From NCBI GenBank assembly GCA_030407005.1, contig JAUDYN010000009.1, forward strand, positions 1,178,001 to 1,242,000: a DNA stretch of 64,000 bases, written 5' to 3'. Positions 3,021-45,612 of the stretch are shown one piece after another. The notes below the pieces were generated by a model, which did not search any database, had not been told where the DNA came from, and saw only the letters and a list, made by a program, of their open reading frames with translations. How positions within the stretch are numbered: position 1 is the first letter of the stretch; the number at the start of each line of letters is the position of its first letter. The DNA comes from Desarmillaria ectypa (lineage: Eukaryota; Basidiomycota; Agaricomycetes; Agaricales; Physalacriaceae). The translations under genes and the position numbers were made by a program.

Positions 3021-3053
3021 GATCGAGCAAGGGGCATTGAACTCTTGTTGACC
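3021..3053 (-). other. Gag-stop hairpin, TE-A
   Basis: 33-nt inverted repeat directly after gag. The gag stop TAG is 3053-3055 (minus) and its G is the first base of the stem. The outer stem is GGTCAA against TCGATC, the inner stem CAAGAG against CCCTTG, with an unpaired C between them on the 3' side. A few pairs are lost to G-to-A changes. The pol ATG (3018-3020) follows at once. Confidence 0.6.
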
Positions 3054-5510
3054 TAATCTTTTGTCTCCTCAATTTTGGTCATAGGTGGCACCACTTCATT
3101 AGTGGGCCCTACTGACCTAATGTCCTTGAAGTCCTTTCTCCTAGGATAATCCTTGGCCAGGTGACCTTTCTCATCACACTGGAAACACCTTTCTTCTGCT
3201 CATTGTTGATCTATCTCCATGGGTTTATCTGACCCTCTGTATATCATCCACCAACCCATTCTGGCATCCTGACTCACCCTTGTGTTAGCAGTCAGCTTTG
3301 GAGCTGAGGAACTTGTTGCTCTAGTGGCTGCTTTGCTGCTAGGGTGCTGTTGTGAGGGGTTGGAGTGAGAGTCCTTCTTCTGCCTGTCCTGAGGCATGCT
3401 GGTGGTCTGGTCAAAGACTCACTTGCATTGGTGCTCTTCATACATTCATGAGATATGCTCCTTCCATTCTAGATACGAGTATGGAATATTGATGCCCATG
3501 TTTGAAATGAAGGTCATGTAGGAGGATGGTACTCCTAGTCAGACCACCTTTACCATAGTGCCATGCTCATTCTCATCAGTTCATTAGCCCACCAATTTAG
3601 CTTCCTCTTCCAGCTTCTGGAAGTAATGAGAGGTGGGCTGCATTCCTATTCAGAGGTCAAACATCCACTTTTTATGGACTTCTTTAATTGCAGGGTCTCT
3701 AAATTGGCAAGAGACTATTTCAATGAAGTTATCCCAAGCAGGATATTGAAAGTGGATGATGGTGCCATCATAGACATTGCTGACCCAAAATTCAGGTCTC
3801 TTGTAGACCCACCAGTCCTTTGTGGCTCCTTTAAAGTGTGAAGTTGTGAATAGTACCAGATGTGACAGTACCTGGAAATAATATTGGAATACTTTGAAAT
3901 AGATGATGCAATCACCAATAAAGCATTCAATATCATCATGGTCCCCTTTGAACAGATTTGGGGCCTTGATAAGGACCAGCTTGATGCCCAGATATGGGGC
4001 ATCATCAGGCACATTGCCAATGAGATTGGGGATGGGGTCAGGAGGTTCTTTCCCTGAGGGTGGTCTTAGGATCAAGAATCAATCCAGCCATGGACCTGAG
4101 TAGCCTCTTGGTGGCTCCATTGGTCTTCCTCTTTTAGGCTCCTTTCCCTTCTTGTTTTTACGAAGATAATCTGCCATCATCTTCTGGACAGCTTCTTCTT
4201 CTGCAAGTTTCTCATGTATTTTCCTTATGCATTGTTCTTTTTCAGCCAATGCAGTCCTTGTGCATTGCCAAATTTCTTCTGCCATCTTTGGAATTGATGA
4301 TGGATCTGCAGAGGTGGGGTCTACAGGTGTCATGTCAGCTTCAGCGCTTTCTTCTGCACCTGTGAAGAGAAGGCTACCACTCTGATAGGGGTGATAGCCT
4401 TGTTGTCATGCCTGACTGATAGATGGCAAGTCAGGCAGGGGTTTTAGTCTTGCAACTAGGGTGTCAGATGGATAATCAGAAAAATTTATATATTGGGGCT
4501 GGAAATATTCCAGCCTGCCATAATGTCTGTCATTGTATCTACTTCTTTCAAAGTTGGACATCAGATCCATTCTTCTTCTGTCAGGTGAGTTCCAGTCACC
4601 ATAGTTGTTGAAGGGAGTGACCCAGCTCCTATTGCTCCTCTGCTATCCTTGGGCATAGCCCTGGTACCATGTCACCAATGGCAGGGCAATAAAGCTCCCA
4701 GTTCCTGTTTGCATGGATCTGGGCACAAATGATAGAGTTGGCATTTAGGTCTTATATGAGGTCATCCCTGTTGAGGGCCAACCACTCATCCATGTCTGGA
4801 TGGTGCTCTGGCCATCCCATTCAGGCCTCAATATCCACTCTTTGGAGTTCCCAGATGGTGGATATGAGGGGGCTGAGTATCTGCTAATTAATATCAGTGA
4901 GTGCAGGCCAGGTTCTATTGGTCCCATCAGGATTGTAAGGACTGTTGGGAGAGAGGGGAGAGGTCTTGGATGCAGCATCAGAGCTTTCATCAGAGTCTGA
5001 GGAGAGCTTGATAATTGGGAGTGAGAAGGAGGAGTTGGTTCCTCCACTGTGCCAGGAGCTTCTTCCTTGAGCCCAGGATTCATATAGGTGTCTTTGATCC
5101 ATTTTGGGATCATTGGAGTGAAGGGCCCTGAGGTAGGGCTGGGCAGGGGTAGGAGAATAGGGACAGGCAGAAAGTGAGTATGGGGGTGGGGGGTCATTGA
5201 TCTCAGCCTGTACATCTCATATGTATTCCTCAGCTGGGGTGAGGGTGGATTGTTCCATCCTATAGTTTGCAAAGATTGCTCTTGTGGAAGTCTGGTTGGT
5301 GTCCTCAGAGGAGGACGAAGAGGATGAGGAGGCTATGAAGCAGGCTCAGAGGCAGAATAGTGGAGTCTCCTCTCTTGTTCTCAGTCAGATGGGGGATATT
5401 CTTCTGGGAAGGACATGGTCTGGATGGCGAGGTGGGCAGAGAGAGGGTTGTGGATGGTGGGGTCACCTTTCTTAGTGAATAAGTGCTTGTACTTCTTCAT
5501 ACATTAGTAC
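3053..5510 (-). pseudogene. TE-A Gag with CCHC zinc knuckle
   Basis: Gag pseudogene. The central Gag domain, with the FKGDHDDIECFIGDC and KDWWVYKRPEFW blocks, lies within 3650-4075. The nucleic-acid-binding knuckle at 3146-3187 reads CX2CX4HX4Y: the last Cys is TAT instead of TGT/TGC. A coiled-coil-like stretch (AEKEQCIRKIHEKLAEEE) is at about 4170-4270. The N-terminal block MDEWLALN is at about 4770-4793, in a different frame from the later YGRLEYFQPQY block (see findings). The likely start is near 5500. Confidence 0.8.
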
Positions 5511-16735: not shown

Positions 16736-18750
16736 GGACATTTAGTCTGAGATCAAGGACCCCCCACCCCTGTACACCACACCCTGCCATTCCTGTTCCC
16801 CCACCCCTGCTAGGCCCTACTTTAGGACCTTACACTCTGACAATCCTAAAATGGATTGAAACCATCTATATGGACTCTGGGCTGGAGCAAGAGACTCCTG
16901 GGCCCAAGGAGGAACTGATTCCTCCTCCCTCCCAATCATCGAGCTCTCCAGCGACTCTGAAAGCTCTGACTCTGAAACCCTGTCTGCTCTCCTCCCTCTC
17001 AATAGTCCCTTCAATGCAAATGGGACTGATCACACCTAGCCCAAGCTTACTGACATTGATCAGCAAATACTCAGCCTCTTCATATCTGCCACCTGGGAAC
17101 TTTGAAGGGCTGATGTCAAGGCCAGAATGGCCTGGCTAGAACTTCATCCTGAGATGGATGAGTGGTTGGCCCTCAATTGAGGTGATCCAATATGGGGTTC
17201 AAACCCCAACACCACAGTCTGCACCCAGATTCATGCAAACAGGAACTGGAAGCTTTATCATCCCACTATCAGTGATTTGGTACCAGGGCTACACCCAAAG
17301 ATGGCAGAGAAACAATGGGAGCTGGGTCATTCCCTTCAACAGTTATGGTGACTGGAACTCACCAGAAGGGAGGAGAATGGACTTGATATCCAACTTTGAA
17401 AAAGCTAGATACGAACATAGATACTATGGGGGGCTGGGACACTTCCAGCCTCAATATATGAATCTCCCTGATTACTCTCCCAATACCCCAGTCATAAGAC
17501 CACAGCCCCTGCCTGATTCACCACCATGCAATCAGGCACATCAACAAGGCTATCACCCCTAACTGCACTAGCTGAAAAAGAACAACACATACAAAAGATG
17601 CATGAAAAACTCATAGAGGAAGAAGCTACCCAGAAACTAATGGCAGAATATCTTCACAAAAATGAGAAGGGGAAGGAACCCAAAAGGGGAAGACTGTCAG
17701 AGCCACCAAGAGGCTACTCCAGTCCATGGCTGGATCATTATTCAATCCTGAAACTGCTCCCTGGGAAAGGTCCCCCCAACCCTATCTCCAATCCCATTGA
17801 AAATGTGCCTGATGATGCCCTATATCTGGGCATCAAGCTGGTCCTCATTAAGGCCCCCAACCCATTCAAAGGGGACTATGATGATATCGAATGCTTCATA
17901 GGTGATTGCATTGCCTACTTCGAAGTGTTCTGACACTATTTCCAGATGCTATCACACCTGGTATTATTTGTGACCTTGCACTTCAAAAGGGCCACAAAGG
18001 ACTGGTGGGTCTACAAGAGACCCAAGTTTTGGGTCAGCGATGCCTATAATGGCACTGCCACCCACTTTTGATATTCCACTTGGGATGACTTCATTAAAAT
18101 GGTCTCTCAACAATTCAGAGACCCCATGATCAAAGAAGTCCATGAGAAACAAATGTTTGACCTCCAGATAGAAATGCAGTCCACCTCCCACTATTTCCAG
18201 AAGCTGGAGGAAGAAACCAAATTGGTGGGCTGACAGACCAATGAGAATGAGCATGGCACCATAGTGAAGGCCATTCGACTAGGAGTACCATCCTCCTACA
18301 TAACCTTTATCTCAAACATGGGTGTCAACATTCCACACTCATATCTAGAGTGGAAAGAGTGAATCTCACAAATGTATGAGGAGCACCAGAGAAAATGGGT
18401 CTTTGACCAGACCACCAGTATGCTCCAGGACAGGCAGAAGAAGGACTCTCACCCCAACCCCCAGCAGCAAGACCACTGCTGGGGCAACAAGTTCCTCAGC
18501 ACCAAAGCTGACTGCTAATGCAGGGGTCAGTCAGGATTCTGGAACTGGTAGATGAATGACATATGGAGGGGCAGGCAAGCCTATGGAAATCAACTGATAA
18601 AAGGCAAAAGGCTAATGCTTTAGATGTGATGAAAAAGGTCACATGGTGAAGGATTGCCCTAGAAGAAAAGAGTTCAAGGATGTTAGGTCAGTAGGGCCCA
18701 CTAATGAAGTGGTGCCATCTACAACCAAGATTGAGGAGACAAAAGATTAG
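16736..18750 (+). pseudogene. TE-E Gag with intact CCHC knuckle
   Basis: The N-terminal block MDEWLALN starts at 17154. The YYGGLGHFQPQYMN block (about 17430) is in a different frame. A helical region, LAEKEQHIQKMHEKLIEEE, is at about 17570-17630. The core block PFKGDYDDIECFIGDCIAYF is near 17860-17920. The knuckle CFRCDEKGHMVKDC is complete at 18616-18657. The natural stop is TAG at 18748-18750. There are several in-frame stops upstream. Confidence 0.8.
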
Positions 18751-18782
18751 GTTGACAAGGGTTCGATTCCCCTTGCTCAACC
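18750..18782 (+). other. Gag-stop hairpin, TE-E
   Basis: Perfectly paired copy. The outer stem is GGTTGA with TCAACC, the inner stem CAAGGG with CCCTTG, with a single bulged C and the loop TTCGATTC. Gag TAG is 18748-18750, with its G as the first stem base. The pol ATG is 18783-18785, right after the last paired base. Confidence 0.75.
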
Positions 18783-20284: not shown

Positions 20285-20317
20285 GGCCATGCAAGAGGAA
20301 TCGAACTCTTGATGGCC
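20285..20317 (-). other. Gag-stop hairpin, TE-F (compensated inner stem)
   Basis: The outer stem is GGCCAT with ATGGCC and the inner stem CAAGAG with CTCTTG. The inner stem differs from the usual CAAGGG/CCCTTG by a G:C to A:U replacement on both strands. The loop is TTCGATTC and the bulge C is retained. Gag TAG is 20317-20319 (minus). The pol ATG (20288-20290) lies inside the 3' strand of the outer stem. Confidence 0.75.
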
Positions 20318-22474
20318 TAGTCTTTTGTCTCTTTCATCTTAGCCATAGTACTTTTCACTATGTTAGCTGTACTTACTAACTGAATGTCCCTGAAATCCCT
20401 TTTCTTAGGGCAATCTTTGGCCATGTGGCCCTTCTCATTGCAATACAAACATCTACCCTTGGCCTTTCATCAATCCACTTCCATCAGCTATCCCAACCCA
20501 CTATAGGTTGTCTATCAACCAGTACTGGAATCCCAACTGGGTCTGGTATTGGCCATTGGCTTGGAGGCCAAGAAACTTGTTGCTCCAGCAGCTGGCTTGC
20601 TGCTGGGTTGGATAGAGCAGGAGTCCTTCTGGCCTTCTCATGGCATTCCAGCAGTTTGGTCAAAGACCTATTTTCTTTGTCTCTCCTCATACATGTGCAT
20701 GATATGCTCCTTCCATTCCAGGTATATACAGAGAATGTTAATGCCCATGTTGGATATAAATGTGATGTATGAAGAGAAAACTCCTAATCATACTGCTTTG
20801 ACTATTGCACTGCAGTTGTTCTTGTTGGCCCATCTTTCCACCAGCTTAGCTTCTTCTTTTAACTTTTAGAAATAGTGGGAAGCAGGTTGTATTCCCATCC
20901 AGAGATCAAACATCCTTTTCTCATAGATTTCTTCAATCACTGGGTCTTAGAACTGTTGAGTGATGAGGTCAATGAATTCCTCCCAGCTCGGATATCAGAA
21001 TTAGGGGGCCATGCCATTATGGGTATTGGCTACCCAGTATTCAGGTCTCTTATAGATCCACCAGTCCTTGGTAGCCTCTTTAAAGTGGGAGGTCACAAAC
21101 AATACCAGATGTGGGGGCAGCTGGAAGTAATGATGGAACACTTTGAAATAGGCAATACAATCACCTATGAAGTCTTCAATGTCATCATGATCCCCCTTGA
21201 ATAGTGGGGCATCATTGGGCACATTCCTGATAGGATTTGGATAAGGGTCAGGTGGGGCCTATCCCAGAAGCAGTCTTAGGATCAAAAATTGATCTGGCCT
21301 TGGGATTGGAGCTTGCAGGGGCTCCACAGGTCTTTCTTGTTCAGGGTCTTTACCCTTGTCCCTGAGTTGCTATATCATTGAATGGACCACTTTGTCTGCT
21401 TCTGCTGTGGCTAGTTCTTCACAGAGTTTTTCAATCCATTGTTCCTTTTGAGCTAATTTTTCTTTAGCCTCTTTGATTTGCTCTTCCACTGATGGTTGTG
21501 GCAGTACTGCAGATGTAATGCTTGGTCTGGGATCTTCTCCAGCACTTGCAAATAGAAGGCTGCCACTCTGATAGAGATGGTAACTGGGTTGTTGGGCTCA
21601 CCTTATCAGAGGTAAGTTGGGTAGTGATTGTGGCTGATTAGCCAGAGTGTTGAGGGGATAGTGTGAGAAATTCATATATTGAGACTGGGATGATTCCAGT
21701 CTGTCATAGTATCCTGAGTATGTAAAATTTTCAAAATTCAGCCTTGGGATCTTCCTCTGCCAGTCAGTTTGCCTCTCTTTAGGCCAAGTCTCAAAGGGAG
21801 CATTCCAGTTCTCACTGCCTCTGCATCTGCCCTTCTAAGTTCCCAGATAGTGGTTCGGAAGGGGCCAAATAGGGCTCTGTCAATGTCAGAGAGGTCTGGC
21901 CACTTGTAGTTAGCCCCATTGAGATTGAAGGGGTTGTCAGGGGCTGTGGGAGTGGCTGGGGCCATAGTATCATTGGAGTCATTATCAATAGTGATGACTA
22001 GGAGGGAGAAGGAGGAATTGGTTCTTCCACTAGGCCAAGAGCCTCACTTCTGAGTGGTGATAGCCTATGGACTATAGAAATGGATGCTGGGATAGAGTAT
22101 ACCCATTCTGAGGTCATTTGCCTGTTGTACCCTTCTCTGAGCTGGATGAGGCAGAGTATAGGTGGGAGGGGAGGACTCTCTGGCAATTCAGAATACATCC
22201 TATATGTTCCTCCCATATTCTAGCATGGGAGAGAAGGGTTGTTCCACCTTGATGTCAGAGGAGGTGGGAGTGCTCCTGCATAGAGGAAACTTCTTAGAGG
22301 AGTTTGTGAAGCAGACCTGAGGGATCCTTTCTTCTTTCTCAGATGCCAGATTTGAGGAATCCATCTTGGCAGAGGCTGGTCATCTTGGTAAGACATGGAG
22401 AGGGTGTCAGGGTGGGTGAGATGAAATGTGCAGTTGTCATTGCTGGCATAGGCATGCCCATATTTCTTCTTCAT
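20317..22474 (-). pseudogene. TE-F Gag
   Basis: The N-terminus is probably MKKKYGHAYASN at 22474 (compare MKKNYEPSS in TE-H and MRKKSGHC in TE-I). The block FNLNGANYKWPDLSDIDRAL is at 21840-21930. The core FKGDHDDIEDFIGDCIAYF and KDWWIYKRPEYW are within 21001-21222. The knuckle at 20410-20451 reads CLYCNEKGHMAKDC and is complete. Interrupted by stops and frameshifts. Confidence 0.75.
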
Positions 22475-22737: not shown

Positions 22738-23264
22738 CAATAGACTGACAAAAGTGAGCATGATGCAATAGTTAAAGCCATGTGAATCAGGGTCCTCTTC
22801 TCATACACAACATTTATCTCAAACATGGGGGTCACCATTCTTTAAACATACCCCAAGTAAAAGGAGCACATCCTCTGGATGTATGAAGAAAGACAATGAA
22901 AATAGGTCTTTGACCAGACCTCCAGCATCTCTCATGACCAGTAGAAGAAGGAAGCCCTCAGCCTCAAACACACCCTAGAAGTAAACCAGCTTCTGGGATA
23001 TCAAGTTCCACAGCTCCAAAATTGACAACAAGCACAGATCCTGGACGGGATATATCAATAGGCTGATAGACAATGTATGGAGGGTTGGGACAACCAATGG
23101 AGGTTGACCATTAAAAAGTGGAAGGCTGATGCTTTCACTGCAATGAAAAAGGACACATGGTGAAGGATTGTCTCAAAAGGAAAGAATATCAGGACATCTG
23201 ATCAGTAGCAGTCATCAAGGAGGAGGAGAAATGCGAGGTGAAGATTGAGGAAGTAAAAGCTTAG
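22738..23264 (+). pseudogene. TE-G Gag C-terminal part
   Basis: Begins at the Gag segment that reads LAGQRTDE in TE-I and ends at TAG (23262-23264). The complete CX2CX4HX4C knuckle is at 23130-23171, but the codon just before it is TGA. Strongly decayed. Confidence 0.7.
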
Positions 23265-23296
23265 GTTGCCAAAAGTTTGATTCCCCTTGTGCAACC
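23264..23296 (+). other. Gag-stop hairpin, TE-G
   Basis: The outer stem GGTTGC/GCAACC is fully paired and differs from every other copy, a covariation. The inner stem CAAAAG/CCCTTG has lost two pairs through G-to-A changes. The gag stop is TAG at 23262-23264. No ATG is preserved at the pol start. Confidence 0.65.
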
Positions 23297-31510: not shown

Positions 31511-31543
31511 GGTTAAGTAAGGGAAATCAAACTCTTGTCAATC
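31511..31543 (-). other. Gag-stop hairpin, TE-H (decayed)
   Basis: Same 33-nt frame and position: TAG at 31543-31545 (minus), outer stem GATTGA/TTAACC, inner CAAGAG/CCCTTA. Several pairs are lost, each explicable by one C-to-T or G-to-A change from a paired ancestor. Confidence 0.55.
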
Positions 31544-33655
31544 TATTCTTTTACCTCCTCAATCTTGGCCATAGGCAGCACCACTTCATTAGTGGGCCCT
31601 ACTGACCAAATATGTCCTTGAAGTCTTTTCTCTTAGGACAATCCTTGGCCATATGGCCCTTCTCATTACATCTAAAACATCTTTCTTTGGCTCTTCATTG
31701 ATCAATCTCTATTGGTCATTCTGCCCCTCTATATGTTATTCATCAGCTCATACCAAATCTTAACTGGGACTGGTATGGGCTGTTGGCTTTGGAGCTGAGA
31801 AACTTATCACCCCAGTGGTGGCTTTGCCACTGGGATGTGATTGGGGGTTGGGATGGGAGTTCTTCTTCTGCCCATTTCAGGGAATTCCTGCCATTTGGTT
31901 GAAGACCCACTTGCACTGTCATTCTTCATATATGCGCAAAATTCTCTCCTTCCATTCTGGATACATGCATGGAATGTTGATGCCCATGTTGGAGATAAAG
32001 GTTATATAGGAGGTTGGTACTCCTAGCCATACAGTCTTCACCATAGTGCCATGCTCATGTTCATCTGTCCTCTGGCCTGCTAGCTTTGCTTCCTCTTTCA
32101 GTTTCTGGAAGTAATGGGAAGCAGGCTGCATTCCCATTCAGAGGTCAAACATCCTTTTCTCATAGACTTCCTTGATCACAGGGTCTCTGAATTGCCAAGA
32201 GACCATATTGATGAAATCCTCCCAAGAAGAATATCAGAAATGGGTGAGGGTCCCATCATAGGCATTCCCAACCTAGAATTTGGGTCTCTTGTAGACCCAC
32301 CAATCTTGTAGACCCACCAATCTTTAGTGGCCCCTTCAAAATGGGAGGTCACAAAAAACACCAGATGCAACAGCAACTGGAAGAAGTGATAGAACACTTC
32401 AAAGTAGGTGATGTAATCATCTATAAAGTGTTCAATGTCATCGTGATCCCCCTTGAATGGTTTTGGGGGCTGGATGAGGATTGGTTTTATCCCCATGTAG
32501 AGGGCATCATCAGGAGTAATCCCAACAGGATTGGGTAAGGGATCAGGAGGACCTCTTTTGGGGCCAGTCTTAGGATAAAAAAATGATCTGACCAGGGAGT
32601 GAGATATCCTCTGGGAGGTTCTGTCAGTCTCCTATGCTCAGGCTCCTTTCCCTTGTCATTCTCACAGAGATAATCCATCATTTCTTTCTGGATGGCTTTC
32701 TCCTTAGTGAGTTCTTCACATATCTCCTTGATGTGCTGTTCCTTCTCAGCTAAGGTTCTGGTTGACATGCCTGACTGTATGGTGGCGAGTCAGATAAAGG
32801 TTGTGGCTGTTGAGCTGGGGTGTCAGAGGGATAATTGGGATAATTCATGTATTGGGGCTGGAAATATTCCAGTCCCCCATAGTAGCCTGTTCTGTATGTA
32901 AATTTATCAAAATTGGGCATCATGCCCATTCTCCTCCCATCTATCAACCTCTAATCTCCAAAGTTGTTGAAGAGAGTGACCCAGTTCCCATTGCTCCTCC
33001 ACTGTCTGAGGGCATAGTCTGGGTACCAAATCTCCTGTGGCAGGAGGGAAAAGGTTTTAATGCTGATTGGCATGTATGCAGGCCTGAATGGTGGCACCCA
33101 GATTGAGTCCCCATATGGGGTCATCCTGGTTGAGTGCTAGCCACTCATCCATGTCCAGTCTGGTCTCAGGCCAGTCTATACAGGCTTCAATGTTGGCTCA
33201 TCAAAGGTTCCAGGCAGTGGCCCTAAAGGGGCCAAATATCTCCTGATTGACATTAGAGAGCTCAGGCCAATTATAATTGGCTCCATCAACATTGAAGAGG
33301 CTGTTGGGAGGGAAGGGAGCTGCCATGGTCGAGCTGTTAGGGAATATGCAGGGTGAGGGATCCTCAAATATAGCCCATACATTCCTTGCATATTCTTGGG
33401 TGGGGGTAGAGGGTTGTTCCATCTGGTTGTTTGTTGTGGGTTCCTCATGGATTGTGAACTCCTCAGAGGAGGAGAAATTGATGAATCAGACCTGAAGATG
33501 AGGGAGTAATTCTTCTTCTCTTGGTTCCATTCAGATGGGGGAAGGCCTCCTGGAAAGGCCATGTTGGGGATGTCAGAGTGGTCAGGGTGGTAATTGCAGT
33601 TGTGAATGGTGAGTTTGCCATTCTTGATGGAGGAGGGTTCATAGTTCTTCTTCAT
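31543..33655 (-). pseudogene. TE-H Gag
   Basis: The likely start is MKKNYEPSSIKNG at 33655, with the frame open for 159 codons. The N-terminal block NVDGANYNWPELSNVNQEIF is at 33220-33310. The YYGGLEYFQPQYMN block is within 32750-32947. The core FKGDHDDIEHFIDDYITYF is near 32400-32480. The knuckle CFRCNEKGHMAKDC is complete at 31638-31679. A 17-bp tandem duplication (32288-32321) disrupts the KDWWVYKR block. Confidence 0.8.
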
Positions 33656-34209: not shown

Positions 34210-34462
34210 GAGTTTGACTCTTTTTTAGTTTGAATAAGAGGCAGAGTGGTGTGAAGATGCTTCCTTAGAGCTGGACAGTGATATAATGATGCAAGAGGTA
34301 GATATATGGACAGGGGTTTGTGTTTCACTGAATGAGGATGATTACACCTTTACAGATAAAAAGCTTGTATGAAAAGCATGCAGAAATTCAAGCTGCTTAA
34401 CTTATGGCTTGTGTAGAGGATCAGCAAGATGAGAAAGAGGAAGATAAAGACCCCACTATGAG
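34210..34462 (+). pseudogene. TE-J segment between TE-H and TE-I
   Basis: 253 bp of the older element into which both large insertions fell. It continues on the other side of TE-I at 42801 with the shared target bases ATGAG. Plus-strand translation gives acidic/basic stretches (LQIKSLYEKHAEIQAA and CVEDQQDEKEEDKD). It likely encodes Gag of the TE-J element, upstream of its protease at 43290-43600. Confidence 0.5.
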
Positions 34463-34885
34463 TGTTAGGTACTGACTTGGGCACATGACTTGGGATGGTC
34501 AGCTGATCTCTCTGGGCCATTACGCATTCAAATGATCACCCAAGATGAGAGATAGAAGCTAAGAGTCTTCAGTGTTGTGTGAACAAGAAGTATATGATGG
34601 TAATTTAAACAAGAGATAGAGTACAACTGTCTAGTTTACTCTGTTTATATAGTATTTCTACGGCATTATAATTAGATGAAATGCTATGGTCCATGCACAA
34701 ATGGTGTCGAAGTAAGACAATCCAGGAGGATCATAGAATCAATAGGGAGCATCTGGGGTAACAGACAGTGAGAACTAGGATTATAGCCAGTGAATAGCTG
34801 GATACGAGTCGGTTTCTTGAACAGATTAGATGGATGAGTCATGGATATGACTTGGATAAGATAAGATAACAGAAAAATCATAACA
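34463..34885 (-). repeat. TE-I 3' LTR
   Basis: 423 bp, TGTTAGGTACTG to AATCATAACA. It differs from the 5' LTR at roughly 18 positions, apparently all transitions. TATATAAA (sense) is at 34644-34651. The 14-nt segment complementary to the primer-binding site is 34605-34618. Confidence 0.95.
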
Positions 34886-34899
34886 TTACCCCCCTTGTT
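34886..34899 (-). promoter_or_regulatory. TE-I polypurine tract
   Basis: In sense, AACAAGGGGGGTAA directly precedes the 3' LTR, the expected site for plus-strand DNA priming in LTR elements. TE-H (AACAAGAGGGTAA) and TE-D have matching tracts in the same position. Confidence 0.7.
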
Positions 34900-36720
34900 A
34901 AAGCAGTTGTCCTGACTGCTAAGGCTCTTCCAAAGGGGTGTCGAACTGTGTTGCGATTTGACTGATCCAGTACTGATCAATCAGTTTCTTCCATATTTCT
35001 TCATCTGGATTAATAATCCACTTGGTATATCCATCTTTTCTTTTGGCGAGGTAGGCTACATTGCCGTGTTCCGAGTATTCATGGTCCAGTATCTTGACCA
35101 CTGCTTTGTCCTTGATTGTGATTTTTGGAGTGTATATGGTGCGGTTTACACTAGCCTGATACTCTTGGATCACTTCCAAGGCATTCGTCATTTCATTCTC
35201 TCGGACCCATGAATTGTACTCACAGGTCCATCCTTTCCATTTGACTAGATAGTCTGTGACTTCCCTGGATGGTTGTCCTCGCTTGGATTGTACCTTTCTG
35301 GTGCACAAATCCAAGACTTCTTTGATTTCGTATTCTTCTTGACTGTCGACGAGGTCCGGACAAGGAGGCAGCAGTAATTCTTGGTTCATGAATGAAGGTG
35401 CGATGTATGGAGTCAACAATTTTTCATTGAACCAAGGGTGAATCTTCCAATGGGGTGGCAGCTTTAGCTTGTATGCTGCTGCTCCTGATTTCTCGATGAT
35501 CTCGAACAGTCCCATTCATTTATCGTCAAGCTTTTTCTTTGGTTGTGGAAGATGGAGGTTGGCAGTGTCTAGCCATACCTTATCTCCAATTTGATACTCT
35601 CTTGAAGTCTGTTTTCTTTTGTCGTATTGTGCCTTCATTTGTGCCGCTGCTTTTTCCAATGCTTCATGGACTTCTTTATGAACCTTGGCCATAGTTTCCA
35701 TAAAGTCGACAGCTGCAGGATTCGCGAAGCTGGTTTTCTGAATTGATTCCGGAATGAGTCAGGGGTTTCATCCATATAGGGCCATGAAAGGACTTTTGCC
35801 CATAGCCAAGTGAACTCGGTTGTTGTGGGCGAATTTGGCAAGGGGTAACCATGCTACCCAGTCTGTTTGACAGTGGTTGACAAAGATCTGGAGATACTTT
35901 TCAACTTCTTGATTTACCCTCTCCATTTGTCCATCTGTTTGAGGGTGGTATGTTGTTGAGGCATTCTGCTTGATGTCTAGCATTTGGTATAGTTCCTTCA
36001 TGAATGCTGAGATGAACTGGAGTCCTCAGTCAGAGATAACTACTTGTGGCATTCCATGCTTCACATATACGTGGTTGCGAAGTATTAGTGCCCATCCTTC
36101 AGCAGATAACTCCTCACTGCATGGAATAAGGAGGATGTTCTTGGAGAAATGGTCTATGATGACTAGTAAAGCATCATGTCCTTCTGACTCTGGTAGTCCT
36201 GTCACCATGTCGACTGAGATATGGGTCCATGGAGTGTCAGGTATTGCATTGGGATGAAGAGGTACAGCCTTGGTCTGCATATTGTTCTTTGTTCTCTGAC
36301 AAGTCTCGCATCCTTTGATATAAGACTCCACATCCTTCTTCATCTTTGGCCACTAATACTCACGAAGAATGAGTTCCTTGGTCTTGGCGATTCCTGGATG
36401 TCTGGCAGTGATATGATCATGGAATTGTGCAATGATCTCCCTGCATAGAATAGAGTCGTTAGGAATGTAGACTCGTCCATTGTACCACAGGATTTCGTCT
36501 TCCTGGGTGATTCCTCATTCATGGTTGAGGGATTTCTCGATCCCTTGGTCCCACTGATCTTTCTGTTTTGTTGCGTCTCTTATACGCGTGATCCTTTCTT
36601 CAGTTGTTGGTAATACCAATGCTCAGAAATGTTCTGGGGATAGGACAACAATATTTTGATTGTCACTTTTTCCCTGATCGTGATCATCTCATCTGCTGAG
36701 AAGATCGGCCTTCTGATTAG
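34900..36720 (-). pseudogene. TE-I integrase with chromodomain
   Basis: The zinc-binding H-H-C-C region is near 36300-36440 (HDHITARHPG, then CETC). The catalytic triad is D (36209-36211), D (36029-36031) and E (35921-35923), with 35 residues between the last two, as in D-D-35-E integrases. TGA follows the second D. The post-core block KVWLDTANLHLPQPKKKLDD is at about 35520-35580. The last 198 codons (35515-34919) are open and hold a chromodomain with VTDYLVKWKGW and, further on, a second chromo-like stretch (VAYLAKRKDGYTKW). Chromodomains steer integration to heterochromatin in chromoviruses. Isolated stops leave it inactive. Confidence 0.88.
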
Positions 36721-38250
36721 CAGTTCCAGCTTTGTGTTGAAGAACAAAGTGGTATTCCACTAGTTCAGTGACCCACTGAGCTTGTCAGCGATTCAACTTC
36801 TGGGGTTTCTGGAAGTATTGGAGATTCTGGTGGTCAGTCCAGATCTCAATGGTCTCTTTGGCGCCCATGAGGTAGTGACGCCATTCTTCTAGTGCCAACA
36901 TGATTGCTAGCAACTCCTTGTCGTAGATTTCATAATTATGCTCAGTGACGGTGAGCGCTTTTGACATGAAGGTGACTGGTCTCCATTTTTCTTCCTTTTC
37001 TTGACTTAGGATGGCACCAATGGCTCTGTCACTAGTGTCGGCCTCGACTCGGAACTTTCCATCATCCGAGGGAATTGTAAGAACTACGTTTGTTGTCATC
37101 AACTTCTTGAGTTGATTAAATGCCTGTTCCTGTTCTGATCCCCATGTCCAGTCTACCTTTCTGGTTAACTGAGTAAGAGGATGCACTATCTTGGAGTAGT
37201 CCTTGATGAACTTCCAGTAGAAGTTCATGAATCCCAAGAATGACTGTAGCTCCTTCTTTTTTGTTGGGGTTGGCCATTCTGCTATGCCTGCAATCTTGAT
37301 TGGGTCCATGCGAATGGCATCTTCGCTGATGATTACTCCAAGGTATTTGGTCTCAAGTACCTTGAACTCACATTTCTCTGCCTTGAGGAACAATTTGTTT
37401 TCTCGAAGATGTTGGAGTACTTGTCGTACTACATCTCAGTGTTCTGACAAGGATTTGGTGAATATAAGTATATCATCGAGGTAAATCATGACTTTTCCTC
37501 CAGCGATCAAATCCTTGAATATGTCATTCATCATCCACTGGAACGTGGCTGGTGAGTTTGTAAGTCTGAAGAACATAACCGTAGGCTCAAAGAGTCCTCG
37601 ATTAGTTCTGAATGTGGCCTTCTCTTCGTCTCCATCTCGAATATGGACATTGTTATATCCCCAGCGGACGTCCAGCTTTGAGAAGTACTTGGCTCCCCAT
37701 AATTTGTCAATAAGCTCAGAGATGAGTGGAAGGGGATAACAATTCTTGATTGTCATTTCATTCAGTTTTCGGTAGTCCTGAACTGGTCGTAAGGAGCCAT
37801 CCTTTTTCTTGACAAAGAAGAAAGGAGAAGCGAAAGGGGATTTCGAGGGACAAATACATCCTGAGTCTAAGTTCTCATCTAAGAACTTGTCCAATTGTTC
37901 TTGCTCATTTCGATTGAGTGGGTACACCTTGCAATCCAAGGTAGATTTTGTGTTAGGGACCAATTCGATTGCATGGTCCCAGGGTCTTCTCTCTGGTAAT
38001 TTGTCAAAGCTTTCTTTAGAGAATAGATCTCTGAAGCTTTGATACTGAGGAGGCATGAGCTCCTCAAATGTCTGTTTCAGTTTTTCAGCGTTGGCGGCTG
38101 TGGCCAGCTCGTTTGCATGATGGATGGCACGGAGTATGATTTCTTCTTGCATATTTATGGCAAGAATACTTTCTCCTTCTTCGAGCTCTTTGTCCCATCA
38201 GTCTTCTTCATCTGCATTGGGCAAAGTGAAATGGTTTTGGACGCAATGAC
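36720..38250 (-). pseudogene. TE-I reverse transcriptase and RNase H
   Basis: RT starts after FRDLFSKESFDKLPERRPWD and includes [19 protein letters not shown] and the palm motif YLDD at 37472-37483 (IYLDDILIFTK). The connection SFLGFMNFYWKFIKDYSK leads to RNase H with FRVEADTSDRAIGAILSQ and YEIYDKELLAIMLALEEW, ending KADLLSR. The open stretches are 238 and 202 codons, separated by one TGA (SEH stop DVVRQ). Polymerase and RNase H make the DNA copy of the element RNA in cytoplasmic particles. Confidence 0.9.
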
Positions 38251-38299
38251 ATTGTCCGAATGTCAAAGTCCCCACCTTCCAGTTGACGAAAGGGTTATG

Positions 38300-38640
38300 G
38301 CATTTAAGCCAGTCATGGCCCAAGTACACAGTCTTGGAGCCTAGGTCAGTGACCACAAGGTCAATTCATTCGCTATGTCCTCCAATGGTCATTCGGAGTT
38401 CTATGAATTCTGTAATGTCCCCTGCCTTATTGCATGTTCTGTCAGCATTATAGACCGGTATAGGGGCTGTGGCCTTCCTGGTGTCCAACCAATGTTGCTG
38501 GACATAAGTTCAGTTGATAGAGCTGCCTGTGTAGCCACTATCCAACAATGCTCAGGTTGTCAAGGTCTGTTTCCCAGTACATGGGGAAAGTTGGATATCC
38601 ACCAAGAAGTCCTGTCCGGAACTCTTGGTACCATGAATGT
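38300..38640 (-). pseudogene. TE-I protease domain
   Basis: Retropepsin-type domain. The active site ALLDSGYTGSSIN is intact. TGA stops occur just before ALLDSG and inside INxTYVQQ, both where related copies have Arg or Gln. The conserved YNADRTCNKAGDITEFIEL and LGHDWLKCHNPFVNW blocks follow. It would mature Gag and Pol. Confidence 0.85.
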
Positions 38641-39599
38641 AATGAATCAGTTCATGTAGTTCATAGAGCTGTTCTCGGGCTATACTCCCTCCTGTCTTTA
38701 AGCTTTGAATAAGCTCATCATTGATTTCTCCAAGTCATTTGGGATGTACCCAAATGGAGAGAACTGCCTTGGCGATTGCCAAATTCTTGGAGTCGCATAC
38801 TGCATGCATTGTCCAGTCAATTCTGAATGGTCTAAACCATTGGAAATCATTCTGCTTCCCTGTATGTTCGGAAGACTTGTCTTGCTTCCCTGTGCATTTG
38901 GAAGTGTCTGATACCCCCTTGTTAGGATAGGTGTCGGGTTTGACGCTTCCCCTTGCATTTGGAAGGTCAATGGTCTGTGGTTCCGGTGTTCTGGATATCG
39001 GGGTACTGGCTTTGGATTGGCTGACTTGCCACATCCTAAAAGCCATGTCATCTTCTTCGTCGGGTACTTTAATGATAGTAGTTCTGCTGAAATGCCCCCT
39101 TTTTACCACCTGGGCACTAGCGGGATCCTGTTCCTTTTCTTCAGCCGGCACCACTCGCAACGGAGTTTGAATTTCCTTGGTCATTGACTCCCAGCTAGTG
39201 CCTAAGGTGACCTTTGCTTGCCCTGCTGCTTGAGGTGGGTACTGGGACGGTCGGACTTCTTGGAGGCCCGAAGGAGTCCTGCCTACTGGTCCCTGCTCAT
39301 CACTGTGCGCTCAGCGGCATATCTGGTGAGCTCTGCTTGTTGGACTTTGTTGTGGCACCAACACCACTTGGCAAGTCCCGCTCCAGTTCGTCGGAGGCTC
39401 GGGATTTGTCACTACAGATACTTGTGTCAGCATCTTCTAGGAGGATGACGTACCTGTTTGTTCTTGCTGATTCTTGTTCAGTCTTCGGCTTTGATTTCTG
39501 TGAAGTCATAGATATATTTGTTTTCATACGTAATTGTCTGTTTTCATAGTAATCAGTCTGACCCGCAGAAACCAAGGACACACCTTGAGACTTGGGCAT
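38640..39599 (-). pseudogene. TE-I N-terminal Pol spacer
   Basis: Pol opens at the ATG 39599-39597, inside the 3' strand of the gag-stop hairpin: MPKSQGVSLVSAGQTDYYEN, 99 codons to a TGA at 39300. Further conserved blocks (QVVKRGHFSRTTIIKVPDEE, WFRPFRIDWTMHAV) lie at 38735-39184. I recognise no domain. Imperfect 20-bp direct repeats (38852, 38882, 38944) interrupt it and are not seen in the other copies. Confidence 0.55.
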
Positions 39600-39626
39600 G
39601 CAAGGGGAATCGAACCCTTGATGCCC
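39594..39626 (-). other. Gag-stop hairpin, TE-I
   Basis: Fully paired. The outer stem is GGGCAT/ATGCCC, the inner stem CAAGGG/CCCTTG, with one bulged C and the loop TTCGATTC. The gag stop TAG is 39626-39628 (minus) and supplies the first stem base. The pol ATG (39597-39599) is in the 3' strand of the outer stem, in the -1 frame relative to gag. Confidence 0.8.
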
Positions 39627-42209
39627 TACTCTTTTACCTCCTCGATCTTGGAGGTGCTTGGCACCACTGCATCAGTGGGCCCCACATATCTCACAATGTT
39701 CTTCTCTTTTCTCATAGGGCAATCCCTGCTCAGGTGACCCTTTTGATCACACCTGAAGCAGTGCCCCTCGGCTCATTGCCGGTCTAAGTCCATGGGCTTC
39801 CCTGCCCCTCCGTACATCATCCACTTACTGGTTCCAGCATCGCGACTGGTTCCTCCACTCCCAGCAGTCAGCTTTGGAGCCAAGGAACTTGTCGCCCCAG
39901 TGGTGTTCTTGCCACTGGGCTGCTGTTGTTGGGGATGTGGGCCCTGCTTCTGGCTGTCCTGAGGCGTACTAGTGGTCTGGTCAAAGACCCATTTCCGCTG
40001 CCTCTCTTCATACATCCAGAGGATGCATTCTTTCCACTCTGGATATGAGCACGGAATACTCATGCCCATATTTGATATAAAGGTCATGTATGAGCTAGGC
40101 ACTCCTAGTCACACTGCCTTCACCATTGTGCCATGTTCGGCCTCATCAGTTCTTTGGCCTGCTAACTTGGCTTCTTCTTCCAGCTTCTGGAAGTAGTGGG
40201 AGGCGGGTTGTGCTCCCATGTGCTTTTCATGGATCTCCTCGATGGCGGGATCCCAGAATTGTCTTGTGATGAGGTCGACGAAGTTGGCCCAGTTGGGGTA
40301 TCGGAAGTGGGTGACAGTGCTGTCAAAGGCATTGCCTACCCAGTATTCGGGTCTCTTGTAGACCCACCAGTCCTTGGCGGCGCCTTCAAAATGAGACATC
40401 GTGAATAGTACCAGGTGTGATGGCACCTGGAAATAGTGTCGAAACACTTCGAAATAGGTGATGCAATTGCCTATGAAGCATTCAATGTCATCATGGTCCC
40501 CCTTGAATGGGGCGGGGACCTTGACGAGGGTCGGCTTGATGCCCAGATAGGGGGCATCAGCAGTGGCATTCCCGACAGGGTTCGGGATTGGGTCAGGAGG
40601 TCCCTGACTGGGGGGTGGTCTTGGGATCAAGTATCGATCCAGCCTGTAACCTGGGTAGCCTCTTGGCAGCCCCATTGGTCTTCTCCATTCCGGTTCTTTC
40701 TCCTTCTCCTGAACCTTGAGGTAGTCCGCCAATGTCTTGCAGGCAGAATCCTCCCTGTTGAGTTCTTCATGCATCTCTGCAATGCACCGTTCCTTTTCCA
40801 GCAACTCACTTCTCATCTGTTGCCAGACTTCTTCTGCCGTGGCAGGGGTTCTTGATGCCCCTACAGTGGTGTTTCCTGCAGGGGCTCCTTCTGCTTCCAT
40901 TTCTTCTCCTGCCCCTGCAAAGAGAGGACTACCACCCTGATAAGGGTGGTATCCTTGGTGACATGCCCTATGGTGTGGGGGCGAATCAGGGAGTGGCCAT
41001 GGGTTTGCGACCGGGGTATCCGGTGGATGATCCGGATGTATTTCATATTGGGGATGGTGGTATTCCATCCTGCCATAGTAACCTGTATCATAGGTTAACA
41101 TATCATACTGGGGCCTTTGCCCCCAATCACTCCTCTCTTGCCACCTCCAACCTCCATAAGTGTCAGAGGGTCCTCTCCAGTTCTCACTGCTCCTCTGGAT
41201 CTCTGGGCTGAAGCCCTGGAAAGAAATCCCCTGCGGAGGGGCGGAAAATGGTCTGGTCATGATTTGCACATATCCGGAGGTTGACGATATTGGCCCTGGC
41301 AGAGCTGGGCCCATCGAAGGGAATTCTGATGGGGTTGCCCCTGTTAAGGGCCAACCACTCATCCATGTCGATCCTGGGTTCTTTCCAGAGATCTCAGGCT
41401 TCGACATTCCATCGTCGAACCTCCCATGCTGCAGTCTGGAATGGACCGAAAATTCTTCGGTTGACCTCAGAGAGGTCGGGCCAGATGAAGTCTTCCCTGT
41501 GCAGGTTGAAGGGGTCATCGGCAGCACAGGGAGGGGCTAGGACCAGGGCGTCATCTCCGATGATGTCATCATTGGACTCATCATTGGAGATTTCGATGAT
41601 GGGGAGAGAGGAGAGAGAGATGGACTCTCCTTCCTCTGGCCAGGCCTCATGACCCCAGGGGCCATAAGGGTGGTTTCAATCCATGGCAGGATCGTCAGGG
41701 TGGTGGGGTCTGACTATGCTGGACCCTCTATTATTATTGCTGTTGGGCGATGGGGAATCTGATCTCCACTGGGATATGCGGAGGGTGGGGGTTCTTGGAT
41801 GAGAGGGGGGGCTGGGGTTCATCCAGTGCAAGCTGAATGTCCCGCATGTATTCTTGGGCCGCTGTGTGGGCAGCTGTTGGTCGCTCCAGTGTGACAGTGG
41901 GTCGTTCCATCTGGTAGCAGAGGAGGACAGCTCTCACATTATGTATGTGAGCAGAGGAGGGCCCGGCAACTGGGGTCCGAATTGTTGAGGGCCCTGGAGT
42001 TGGGGGCCTCAGGTCAGTGCTCCCCTCAGAGGAGGAGGCAATTGTGAAATGGGCATGGGGATGGACAAGTGATACTTTCTCTCATTCTCCCAATCTTGCA
42101 GGGGGTATCCCCCGGGGAACGACATGGGTGGTTGGTGGGGCGGGGCAGGGTAGTGGGTCGGATTGTCAGGGCTGCCTTTGTCTAAGCAGTGCCCAGATTT
42201 CTTCCTCAT
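39626..42209 (-). pseudogene. TE-I Gag
   Basis: Capsid/nucleocapsid precursor. The likely start is MRKKSGHCLDKG at 42209. The N-terminal blocks are DDPFNLHREDFIWPDL (about 41490) and MDEWLALN (41366). The longest open stretch is 472 codons (41527-40109), with YDTGYYGRMEYHHPQY, a helical LEKERCIAEMHEELNRE and the core FKGDHDDIECFIGNCITYF, KDWWVYKRPEYW. A TGA at 40106-40108 replaces Arg in VKAV-R-LGVPSSY; the frame then continues to the intact knuckle CFRCDQKGHLSRDC (39719-39760) and TAG 39626-39628. MDEWLALN is in a different frame from the later blocks. Confidence 0.88.
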
Positions 42210-42363
42210 AAATTAATATGGCGAGGACCATAAAAAATGACAAAAGTATGGCACCACTGATAGCGATGCCAAGAGACATGGTTCAGGGTTCTTGGGGGTT
42301 TCTTTCTTCTCTGGGTATGGAGAAGTGCTTCTATACAGCTGGCATTAAAGAAGCAGAGGATGA

Positions 42364-42377
42364 TATCTCTTGTTTAA
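42364..42377 (-). promoter_or_regulatory. TE-I self-priming primer-binding site
   Basis: Sense TTAAACAAGAGATA starts right after the 5' LTR and is perfectly complementary (14/14) to the sense LTR segment TATCTCTTGTTTAA at 34618-34605. The 5' LTR copy (42533-42520) has one C-to-T mismatch. The paired LTR segment lies 33 nt after TATATAAA, where transcription should start, so the 5' end of the RNA could fold back and prime, as shown for Tf1 and sushi elements. Confidence 0.85.
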
Positions 42378-42800
42378 TATTAGGTACTGACTTGGGCACA
42401 TGACTTGGGACAGTCAGCTGATCTCTCTGGGCCATTATGTATTCAAACAATCACCCAAGATGAGAGATAGAAGCTAAGAGTCTTCAGTGTTGTGCGAACA
42501 AGAAGTATATGATGGTAATTTAAATAAGAGATAGAGTACAACTGTCTAGTTTACTCTGTTTATATAGTATTTCTATGGCATTATAATTAGATGAAATGCT
42601 ATGGTCCATGCACAAATGGTGTCGAAGTAGGACAATCCAGGAGGATCATAGAACCAATAGGGAGCGTCTAGGGTGACAGACAGTGAGAACTAGGGTTATA
42701 GCCAGTGAATAGCTGGATACGAGTCGGTTTCTTGAACAGATTAGATGGATGAGTCATGGATATGACTCGGATAAGATAAGATAATGGAAAAATCATAACA
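42378..42800 (-). repeat. TE-I 5' LTR
   Basis: 423 bp. The first base pair of the terminal TG is changed (TATTAGG). It ends AATCATAACA and is followed by the target duplication ATGAG. TATATAAA (sense) is at 42559-42566 and should drive the element. Confidence 0.95.
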
Positions 42801-43610
42801 ATGAGATCCTTGAACAGATCCTTCAGGAGTGGGTCAAAGCAAAGAAAGATGCTAAAGTGCAGGGAAGAAAACAAGAATGATTATTCAAGAAGGTCAAAGG
42901 TATGATATAATCTGCTAGAGAAAATCAGCCATCTGCTACAATATCAGCTTAACCTGAGCCAATAGCCAAAGGAAACACAAAGATACAGGATCTGCCCACT
43001 AAAGCTAAAGAACAGCAAGTGAAAATGAAGAAGGATCCATGTCAATACAAGCATGCAGCTCCCATCCTTCAGCCTGGTACAATAAAGGAACTCTATAACA
43101 GAGTACTAGACTCTAAGTTTGAAGTATCCATTAAGAAGTTGTATAAAGAGAGTCTAGCAATATGCTACAAGTTGAAAGAAGCTCTTACCAACTATAAAGT
43201 ACCTATAGAGATGCTGAAAGACACTAGAGCAGCTGCTGTTAGGCAAGATTCACTAGTCATAATGACTTTACAAAAAAGATGATATATGCATATAGTTATA
43301 GCAGATGAAGCAGCTGGATTATGAGTCTTAACTCTAGTCATTGATGGTCTGCATGAAGTGAAGGCAGTGTTAGATGAAGGCTCTCAAGTGGTAGCTATAT
43401 CTGCTGAAGTTTGAGAAAAATGCAGACTACCATTAGATCCATCTATCAAGATCTCTCTGACTAGTGCCAATGGTGAGACAAAATAGTCTCTAGACTTATA
43501 CAGAGATGTATCCTTCAACTTCAAAGGGTTAGAAGTTCATCTTCAAGTACATATTATAGAATACACTGTATATGATATTCTTCTGGAATAACTCTTCAGT
43601 ATTCTGATAA
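42801..43610 (+). pseudogene. TE-J Gag C-terminus and aspartic protease domain
   Basis: Continuation of the element split by TE-I. A Gag-like stretch (EILEQILQEWVKAKKDAKVQ) is followed by an 87-codon frame at 43019-43282. A protease-like domain with LDEGSQVVAISAEV (about 43375-43410) stands where related fungal Ty3 elements have LDSGSQIVAM, so the active-site Ser is replaced by Glu. It then runs through VHIIEYTVYDILLE to the junction with TE-K near 43610. This belongs to a Ty3 group different from TE-I, probably the same as TE-L. Confidence 0.65.
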
Positions 43611-43614
43611 GGAG

Positions 43615-45580
43615 AGCAGCAACTCTAGCTCCTCTCTTTTCCTCATCAAACTCCCAGATGATATCCTGCCCACACCTGCCCCCTAAGCTGATGATGACCC
43701 CCTTAATGCTCATGGCTCTAATTATGAGTGGCCAGAGCTCACCAATGTTGACTGGAGAATCCTTGAGACTTTCTAAACCAAAGCTTGAGAAATCAGAAGA
43801 TGAGATGTCAAGGCTAGAACCCCCTAGCCAGGAATCTGTCCTGATATAGACAAATACCTCATCCTCAATTGAGGAGATCTGATCTGAGGCTCCAGTGCCA
43901 ATACCACCATATGCATCTAAATACATGCCAACTAGAACCATAGCCTATATCCTCTATCAGCAGGAGATAGACTACTAGAATTATGACCAAAGACAGCTGA
44001 GGAATAGCAGAATCTGGAGTTCACTCTCCTGGTTCTCACCCATGAAGAGGGAGATCAGTCAGACCTAAACAGCTGAGGGCTTCAATTTTAAAATAAATAA
44101 TTTTATATATAATTATAGCACCTATCAGGGGTTGGGATCATATCAATCCCAATATTCCTTCTTGAACCAGTATGATTATCTGCCTGACACTCTCACAAAT
44201 CCTTCACAACCCCTCTCAGATTTACCACCATTCCTGCTAACTAGCTGAATCTGACAACACAACTTCTATCTCTATCAAGAAAGAAGTCTCTTATTTATGG
44301 AAGCAGGCAAAGACCCTGGCAGAAGTATAACACTACCAGAACCACCACAACTAATCTGAGAAGAACATCTCTAATAGGCCAAAGAAGAAATGATCTGAAA
44401 AAACCAGAAGATTGAGGAACTAAGATGGAAACTTGCTGCAGCTGAGGAACAGCATGACAGACATGCTATGATCTGGCAGTTCCCCATCAAGAGTAAGCAA
44501 CCAGACTGAGGATACCTCTAGAACCCACCCTTTGACCCACTCCTCTGACCTGATCAGTATTCAATTCTGCATCTACCCCCTGGGACAAGTGTCTCCTGAC
44601 CCCTCTCTCTATCCAGTCAGCAATACACCTGATGATGCACCCTACCTTGGTATCAAGCCCATGCTGGTACAACCCCCAAAGCTGTTCAAGAGTGACCATA
44701 ATGATATCAAATGATTTATAGGTGACTACATTGTCTATTTTGAAGTCTTCTGATATTACTTTCAGCTGCTCTCATATCTAGTATTATTCACAACCTCCCA
44801 CTTTCAGAGAGCCACTAAGGACTGGTGAGTGTACAAATGCCCTAAATACTGGGTATCCACCAACTCCACTGGTATCTCCACTCACTTTTGATATCTAGGC
44901 TGGGATGACTTTATGGAACTCATCATTCAGCAATTTCATGATTCTGCCATCAAAAGATTCATGAGAAGAAAATGTTTGATCTTCACATAGGGAATCAATC
45001 TGCCAGCCATTATTTCCAGAAGTTGGAGAAAGAAACAAAGCTTACCAGATGACACACTGATGAGAACAAACATGGCATTCTGGTAAAAGCAGTACAACTA
45101 AGAGTCTCCAGCTTCTATACCTTCTTCATCTCTAATATGGGTATTAATATCCTGCATACTTATCTCAAATAAAAAGAATGCATTCTCAGGATGTATGAGG
45201 AGTGCCAATGTAAGTGAGTCTTTGATCAAACTATAGGAGTCCTGCATAACAACCAGTGATGAGAAGACTATTGATTCTAACAGAATCCCAATAGTAAATC
45301 AACTACTGGGGTGACAAGTTTATTGACAGTCAAACTAGCTGCCAATTTTGGGATAGGCCATGACATAGCAACAGAAAGATGGATAATCTACAGGAGACAG
45401 GGGTGGCCTATGGAAATAAACAGATGCAGGATAGAAGGAAGGTGCTACCAATGCAATGAGAAGGGCCATATAGTCAAGGACTGCTCAAAAAAGAAAGGGT
45501 TTAGGGATGTGCACTCACTAGTGGTGACACCAAAGAATAAGAAGAAGATAGACTTGAAGGTAGAAGAGGTAAAAGACTAG
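43615..45580 (+). pseudogene. TE-K Gag
   Basis: The N-terminal block DDPLNAHGSNYEWPELTNVD is at about 43690-43750. The core FKSDHNDIK and the following FQLLSYLVLFTTSHFQRATKDW-like region lie at 44680-44830. The knuckle CYQCNEKGHIVKDC is complete at 45443-45484. The terminal TAG is 45578-45580. An 89-codon open stretch covers the C-terminus. Confidence 0.75.
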
Positions 45581-45612
45581 ACTGTCAAGAGTATGATTCT
45601 CCTTCAATAGCC
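45580..45612 (+). other. Gag-stop hairpin, TE-K (decayed)
   Basis: Same place and length, TAG at 45578-45580. The outer stem GACTGT/ATAGCC keeps three Watson-Crick pairs and a wobble. The inner stem CAAGAG/TCCTTC is partly lost. It is recognisable mainly by alignment with the intact copies. Confidence 0.45.

Follow-up and report, generated by a model that had tools for sequence, protein, structure and literature searches.

In the -1 programmed ribosomal frameshift signals of HIV-1 gag-pol and Escherichia coli dnaX, stem-loops of 11-12 bp accompany canonical tandem heptamers, according to the passages of PMC8861025 used here. A related arrangement occurs in a 64,000-nt stretch of the Desarmillaria ectypa contig JAUDYN010000009.1 (positions 1,178,001 to 1,242,000 of the forward strand, hereafter the window). 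There, a 12-bp hairpin lies at the gag-pol junction of a chromodomain Ty3/gypsy retrotransposon family and, together with a conserved A_AAA upstream of it, very probably forms a -1 programmed ribosomal frameshift signal. The element shares with dnaX a 5-nt spacer and an A-run with lysine codons (AAAAAAG in dnaX), and its position corresponds to the gag-pol frameshift of HIV-1 (PMC8861025). Unlike the tandem heptamers of both systems, its site reads N_NNA_AAA, where the A-site tRNA alone would re-pair, and its hairpin is bulged on the 3' side in most clades and starts on the zero-frame stop codon.

According to a review (PMC5009743), Z_ZZN is the minimum shared by nearly all -1 sites, with A_AAG as a lysine example; the tandem heptamer is not universal, and the spacers of -1 stimulators measure 5-9 nt. 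Single-tRNA A_AAG sites, including that of IS1222, resemble the present site in their Z_ZZN shift by tRNA-Lys. Those examples are mostly bacterial or synthetic, together with mutant herpes viruses (PMC5009743), whereas here an A_AAA lies in a eukaryotic long terminal repeat (LTR) retrotransposon and is followed by a covarying 3' stem. Pea enation mosaic virus likewise has a stop codon 3 nt past its shift site, which is reported to be important for frameshifting there, but it is a plant RNA virus with a U-run site (PMC5009743).

Among LTR retrotransposons, plant sireviruses carry a stem at the gag-pol boundary, within a 27-nt conserved motif and with 11 covariant base pairs; in contrast to the present element, they are Ty1/copia elements with pol in the +1 frame and a 4-nt loop, and bypass or internal entry has been suggested for them (PMC5009743, PMC2829016, both in part). 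Tca2 of Candida albicans is a fungal LTR element with a predicted structure just past the gag stop, but it is copia-like, uses UGA, keeps gag and pol in the same frame, and its junction did not direct readthrough in Saccharomyces cerevisiae (PMC2194720, PMC7175516). A preliminary description of the window knew of no such element in fungal Ty3 transposons. No description of it was found among the titles and abstract beginnings of the literature matches listed. The novelty was overrated, as gag-pol junction stem-loops that stimulate frameshifting, and the covariant sirevirus stem, are already known (PMC5009743, in part). The main survey (Gao et al. 2003, RNA 9:1422) may include fungal -1 examples; the review cites a 2003 survey for the use of both +1 and -1 frameshifting by fungal elements (PMC5009743, in part). 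The element thus looks like a fungal variant of retrovirus-type frameshifting, not a new mechanism.

A covarying hairpin on the gag stop codon

The existence of the hairpin is confirmed, and selection maintains pairing in its outer stem, in agreement with the preliminary description, which had argued for selection on RNA structure from compensating stem changes. The seven coordinates given there are correct, and in all seven the first hairpin base is the G of the in-frame TAG that terminates gag:

39594..39626, minus strand: hairpin of 33 nt whose 12 bp form two helices of 6 bp, with a single bulged C on the 3' side and an 8-nt loop; first base is the G of the gag TAG; intact
18750..18782, plus strand: intact hairpin copy, A_AAA at 18741-18744
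20285..20317, minus strand: intact hairpin copy, A_AAA at 20323-20326
23264..23296, plus strand: hairpin copy with outer stem intact and inner stem decayed, A_AAA at 23255-23258
31511..31543, minus strand: decayed hairpin copy, A_AAA at 31549-31552
3021..3053, minus strand: decayed hairpin copy, A_AAA at 3059-3062
45580..45612, plus strand: decayed hairpin copy, A_AAA at 45571-45574

Two stacked 6-bp stems, at first attributed to all seven copies, are present in three (18750, 20285 and 39594), and the remaining four have broken pairs. A covariance model was trained on 59 copies from outside the window. Run on the window, it recovered the seven hairpins (E 1.9e-15 to 7.6e-11) and no eighth, the next match having an E of 2.1.

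The wider sample is an alignment of 124 copies: the seven of the window, seven matches of the 39594 junction in a DNA search, the first 30 of the 400 places found by a motif search and 80 drawn from the listed matches of DNA searches with four divergent window copies. All DNA copies come from one 40.6-Mb, 32-contig genome, and other species are represented by proteins only. No two of the 124 copies are identical, and the 45-nt cassette is present in 107 forms. Matches of the motif search must carry AAAG, TAG and the loop with at most one mismatch, and the stem and the base before AAA are free; because AAAG is fixed, motif counts are reported a second time for the 94 copies that this search did not select. 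The pattern AAAGNNTAG-N11-TTCGATTC, with at most one mismatch, occurs 400 times in the genome (190 + 210), and the same pattern written backwards 0 times, so that it greatly exceeds chance expectation. The 20-base core had 0 matches in a viral contig collection, and searches with one Armillaria protein each in viral contig and genome contig collections gave no confirmed relative.

Nine copies that were folded gave z = -2.9 to -5.4 against dinucleotide shuffles. At least five of the six outer pairs are kept in 95 of the 124 copies when each is folded alone. The stem measures 12 bp in 61/124 copies and 11 bp in 29/124, and copy L070, whose clade lacks the bulge, nonetheless forms a 12-bp stem.

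Covariation was assessed on the 124 copies with our own script in the manner of R-scape, using a tree of the flanking sequences, hairpin excluded, and 60 null alignments in which column substitutions were reshuffled over that tree. Two outer-stem pairs, 6-28 (score 128.8) and 3-31 (120.5), rank first and second of 10,731 column pairs. The 95th percentile of the null maximum is 108, neither score was matched in the 60 null alignments, and the third-ranked pair has an E of 0.5. Both sides changed while staying paired on seven branches for pair 6-28 and on six for pair 3-31. The 5' base of pair 3-31 is the third base of a -1-frame glycine codon (GGT, GGG, GGC), and its partner is a first codon base where the amino acid changes to match (ACC, CCC and GCC in 50, 29 and 8 of 124), so coding alone does not explain this pair. 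The outer-stem covariation first seen in seven copies is thereby borne out. The inner-stem exchange of CAAGGG/CCCTTG for CAAGAG/CTCTTG, offered earlier as further covariation, is not significant: pair 11-22 ranks 7356 of 10,731 and reads GC, AC, GT and AT in 63, 30, 22 and 9 of 124 copies.

A separate count on 59 copies (54 distinct) used five measures. Pairing was found in 90.9% of cells, compared with 83.3% after shuffling and 36-51% with slid partners. The covariation score was 0.370 (0.223 shuffled) and two-sided cells numbered 74 (33.9 shuffled); none of these three values was matched in 500 shuffles.

These tests were read against the decay of the repeats. The ratio of observed to expected CpG is 0.16 in window 1-64000, compared with 0.94 for loci surrounding tRNA genes and 0.93 for the little-decayed copies L043, L055, L058 and L062. 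A depletion of this strength looks like methylation decay or a CpG type of repeat-induced point mutation. Substitutions of C to T and G to A therefore dominate, and single-sided stem changes such as C-G to U-G are found everywhere. Given this decay, transversions and two-sided changes were taken as the informative stem changes.

The A_AAA_G motif and the -1 frame

A conserved A_AAA_G stands five bases upstream of the stem, which the preliminary description did not mention and which points to -1 frameshifting. In the 39594 copy the junction is arranged as follows:

39632..39638, minus strand: proposed -1 shift site G_GTA_AAA, with putative tRNA-Lys re-pairing on A_AAA at 39632-39635, from column conservation
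39627..39631, minus strand: 5-nt spacer GAGTA between shift site and hairpin, from the sequence
39626..39628, minus strand: gag stop codon TAG, 3 nt (one codon) past the shift site, from the sequence

Columns -9 to -5, counted relative to the hairpin, read A, A, A, A and G in 124, 124, 123, 122 and 122 of the 124 copies, and in 94, 94, 93, 92 and 92 of the 94 not chosen by motif. Column -9 is the sole gag third position among 64 with zero inferred substitutions; 17 other, mostly fourfold columns have 12-38, and spacer base -3 has 40. The alignment is gap-free from -12 to +32 in every copy, and the 5-nt spacer and the UAG are constant. The gag codon before AAA varies by clade (GTA 74, GCA 29, ACA 16, ATA 4, GAA 1), giving the heptamers GGTAAAA (53), GGCAAAA (28), AGTAAAA (20), GACAAAA (15) and others (8). 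The site has the minimal Z_ZZN re-pairing form, and the 5-nt spacer and 12-bp stem match a putative 3' stimulator in structure and in spacing (5-9 nt). Its gag-pol junction position also fits the earlier suggestion that the hairpin controls Pol synthesis. An intron in place of the frameshift was rejected on sequence, the GT of GAG-GTAAAA not being kept (GCA 29, ACA 16, ATA 4 and GAA 1 of 124).

From these features we infer the slip itself, its efficiency, the slipping tRNA and the stimulating role of the hairpin. A ribosome reading gag would arrive at N_NNA_AAA with the lysine codon AAA in its A site. The ribosome would then have the 12-bp stem-loop at its mRNA entry; counted from the start of the P-site codon, the stem-loop begins at +12 (11 nt downstream). 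The resulting pause may allow tRNA-Lys to slip back one base onto the preceding A, and a fraction of ribosomes would read AGA-NTA-GGN and onward in the -1 frame, through the hairpin and into Pol. The remaining ribosomes would terminate at the UAG, yielding Gag. Such a shift site, with a single tRNA (Lys) and a UAG one codon downstream, would be unusual.

The reading frames agree with this arrangement. The -1 frame has no stop through the hairpin in 102/124 copies, compared with 73 and 74 for the other frames. From -6 to +150 it is stop-free in 78/124, the gag frame, which holds the TAG, in 0 and the +1 frame in 2; from +33 to +150 the corresponding counts are 98, 8 and 3. Between -6 and +33 the -1 frame contains 25 stops; two codons of the 5' strand, read as TGA or TAA, account for 24 of them. 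The four little-decayed copies have a -1 frame that continues without a stop for 495 codons or more past the hairpin. Upstream, 56/124 copies have their nearest -1-frame stop at -18, so a -1 shift in those copies is confined to the last codons before the TAG. Codon-position statistics clearly favour gag upstream and the -1 frame after about +159, and an NRY-like motif further downstream is in the -1 frame in 71/124 copies, at slightly varying distances, compared with 2 and 3 copies for the other two frames.

Protein sequences point in the same direction. The -1-frame residues encoded by the hairpin, G-x-Q-G/E-F-D/N-S-P, are largely conserved. Two gene models of Armillaria ostoyae contain GLGFDSP-MITKDLHT and GLGSDSP-MIAKDLYT, in which GFDSP/GSDSP is the hairpin's -1-frame peptide; the second halves resemble the starts of other pol models (P0053 MIAKDLHT, P0064 MTKDLYT). 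Protein ends were taken from gene models, known from protein sequence alone. Among 36 proteins ending at most 120 residues after the last CCHC knuckle, 15 end in KE, 14 have VKE or VKD plus a short tail and seven have neither, three of these seven being cut off just after the knuckle. Among proteins P0110-P0153, of which the named ones are from Armillaria, some gag models end in KE and others are tailed, e.g. VKEEKAAAT. The gag-pol junction seems to vary within Armillaria.

Several observations weigh against a -1 frameshift signal. The site is not a canonical X_XXY_YYZ tandem heptamer, and efficiency could be low since the P-site tRNA re-pairs poorly in the -1 frame (GUA to GGU, GCA to GGC). 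Significant covariation is limited to two of 12 pairs; the other ten are not significant, and none of the significant pairs is in the inner stem. Two of the five measures of the 59-copy count were not above shuffles, namely pairs with a two-sided change (6, compared with 5.2 shuffled; 192 of 500 shuffles) and further pair types (17, compared with 17.4; 413 of 500 shuffles). The copies are also related, all DNA being from a single genome. RNAalifold without constraints retains the outer stem and draws the inner part differently, and a conserved partner of the loop for a pseudoknot, which is an optional feature of -1 signals, was not found at any fixed offset, the best being 39/124 at one offset. 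A -1-frame stop between -6 and +33 is present in 23/124 copies. Codon-level constraint from +33 to +117 is weak in every frame, with none standing out, so the -1 reading there rests on stop avoidance.

A more specific version of the frameshift can be formulated, in which lysine slippage on A_AAA, with a free P-site codon, would be a one-tRNA eukaryotic -1 shift driven by a hairpin (12 bp, TTCGATT cap) that mimics the size of a tRNA acceptor/T-arm and docks in the A site, the whole forming a compact 45-nt switch kept across mushroom Ty3 elements. This version is improbable.

Alternative explanations of the junction

Bypassing of the type of T4 gene 60 would let peptidyl-tRNA-Lys leave AAA, skip the UAG and the hairpin and land on AAG or AAA at +33 in the -1 frame. 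Known translational bypass sites include a hairpin at the stop codon, which the present junction recalls, and the codon at +33 is AAA or AAG, the same as the shift codon, in 90/124 copies. That codon is ATG, AAT or another in the other 34, and the codon before the TAG is variable, with only 14/124 copies repeating it in the -1 frame between +33 and +60. If the hairpin were never translated, conserved -1-frame residues would be unexpected within it, yet its own -1 frame is open in 102/124 copies and its residues are largely conserved and partly present in the two A. ostoyae models. The fourth A before AAA would be without a role. Ribosome hopping, one of the routes to Pol first considered, is accordingly given little probability.

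About equally unlikely is that the hairpin serves another RNA function (packaging, dimerisation or reverse transcription) or a tRNA/TFIIIC-like role, with frameshifting at A_AAA independent of it. Structural conservation alone names no function, and hairpin bases 11-21 (window 39606-39616, minus strand), comprising the upper stem and loop, read GGTTCGATTCC, which we take to resemble the Pol III B-box/tRNA T-arm consensus. However, 17/124 copies have C rather than T at the start of the loop, and ARAGORN (bacterial code) and Rfam at gathering score found nothing in the whole window. The fixed 5-nt distance to the shift site, as well as a 12-bp length and a position as in frameshift stem-loops, also argues for a link between the hairpin and the shift.

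Slightly less probable still is termination-reinitiation, in which the hairpin would hold ribosomes after the gag UAG until they restart at a nearby -1-frame pol AUG. The pol ATG had been placed in or just after the 3' strand. This is correct for four of the seven window copies (3021, 18750, 20285 and 39594), and ATG stands at +33 in 17/124. As a general statement it does not hold, because no start codon is conserved: the first -1-frame ATG is scattered, lying at or in the hairpin 3' strand in 48/124 copies, at +114 in L043, L055 and L062, and nowhere in the stretch read in 14/124. Moreover, the four little-decayed copies have ACG where ATG stands in the stem of other family A copies. The -1 frame is kept open ahead of such ATGs, through the hairpin itself, and GFDSP/GSDSP is present in the A. 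ostoyae models; reinitiation would also leave the conserved A_AAA unexplained.

Some readthrough signals have a hairpin directly at the stop, as here at the gag UAG, but stimulated UAG readthrough almost certainly does not apply, since pol is in the -1 frame and the gag frame from +33 is open to +150 in only 8/124 copies, being stopped in 116/124.

The retrotransposon family carrying the hairpin

The hairpin-bearing element is a chromodomain Ty3/gypsy LTR retrotransposon family (chromovirus). The parts of the element around the 39594 hairpin copy are:

34463-42800, minus strand: LTR retrotransposon, delimited by an LTR pair and a target-site duplication
42378..42800, minus strand: 5' LTR, 423 nt, TG...TA, with target-site duplication CTCAT at 42801-42805
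34463..34885, minus strand: 3' LTR, 423 nt, TG...CA, with target-site duplication CTCAT at 34458-34462
39680..40588 (contig 1217680-1218588), minus strand: gag stretch, matching A. ostoyae gag-like protein P0139; two internal TGA, decayed copy
36785..38197, minus strand: pol reverse transcriptase and RNase H stretches, Pfam RVT_1, RT_RNaseH_2 and RT_RNaseH
36029..36352, minus strand: pol integrase stretch, Integrase_H2C2 above the cut-off, rve core below it
34925..35515, minus strand: pol 3' end with chromodomain, Pfam Chromo

The LTR pair differs at 19 positions, all 19 of them transitions. Domains in this copy follow the order reverse transcriptase, RNase H, integrase (rve core below its curated cut-off) and Chromo, which is that of Ty3/gypsy. 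In copy L055, an aspartyl protease is encoded in the -1 open reading frame, and a CCHC knuckle is present towards the end of the gag piece, which has a Retrotrans_gag match of 22 bits, below the cut-off of 24.1. In several other genomic copies the gag match lies within an uninterrupted open frame of 856-865 codons. The best protein match of the -1 open reading frame is an Armillaria (Agaricales) retrotransposon protein with 51% identity over 58%, and that of the gag piece is an Armillaria retrotransposon protein with 47% identity over 98%; in both searches, all organism-named matches are from Armillaria species. Primer sites for tRNAs usually begin with TGG. Downstream of the 5' LTR (window 42362-42377, minus strand) the sequence is TTAAACAAGAGATATC, the first bases of which are not TGG.

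For the annotation of such families, the junction carries a caution: ATGs in decayed repeats can be misread as start codons, and in one family the ATG is a decayed ACG. If the frameshift reading is correct, this fungal Ty3/gypsy family would provide a compact natural -1 cassette supported by covariation, with hundreds of variants in one genome. Only A-site re-pairing would be kept in it, so that the weight of the P-site tRNA in eukaryotic -1 frameshifting would become directly testable.

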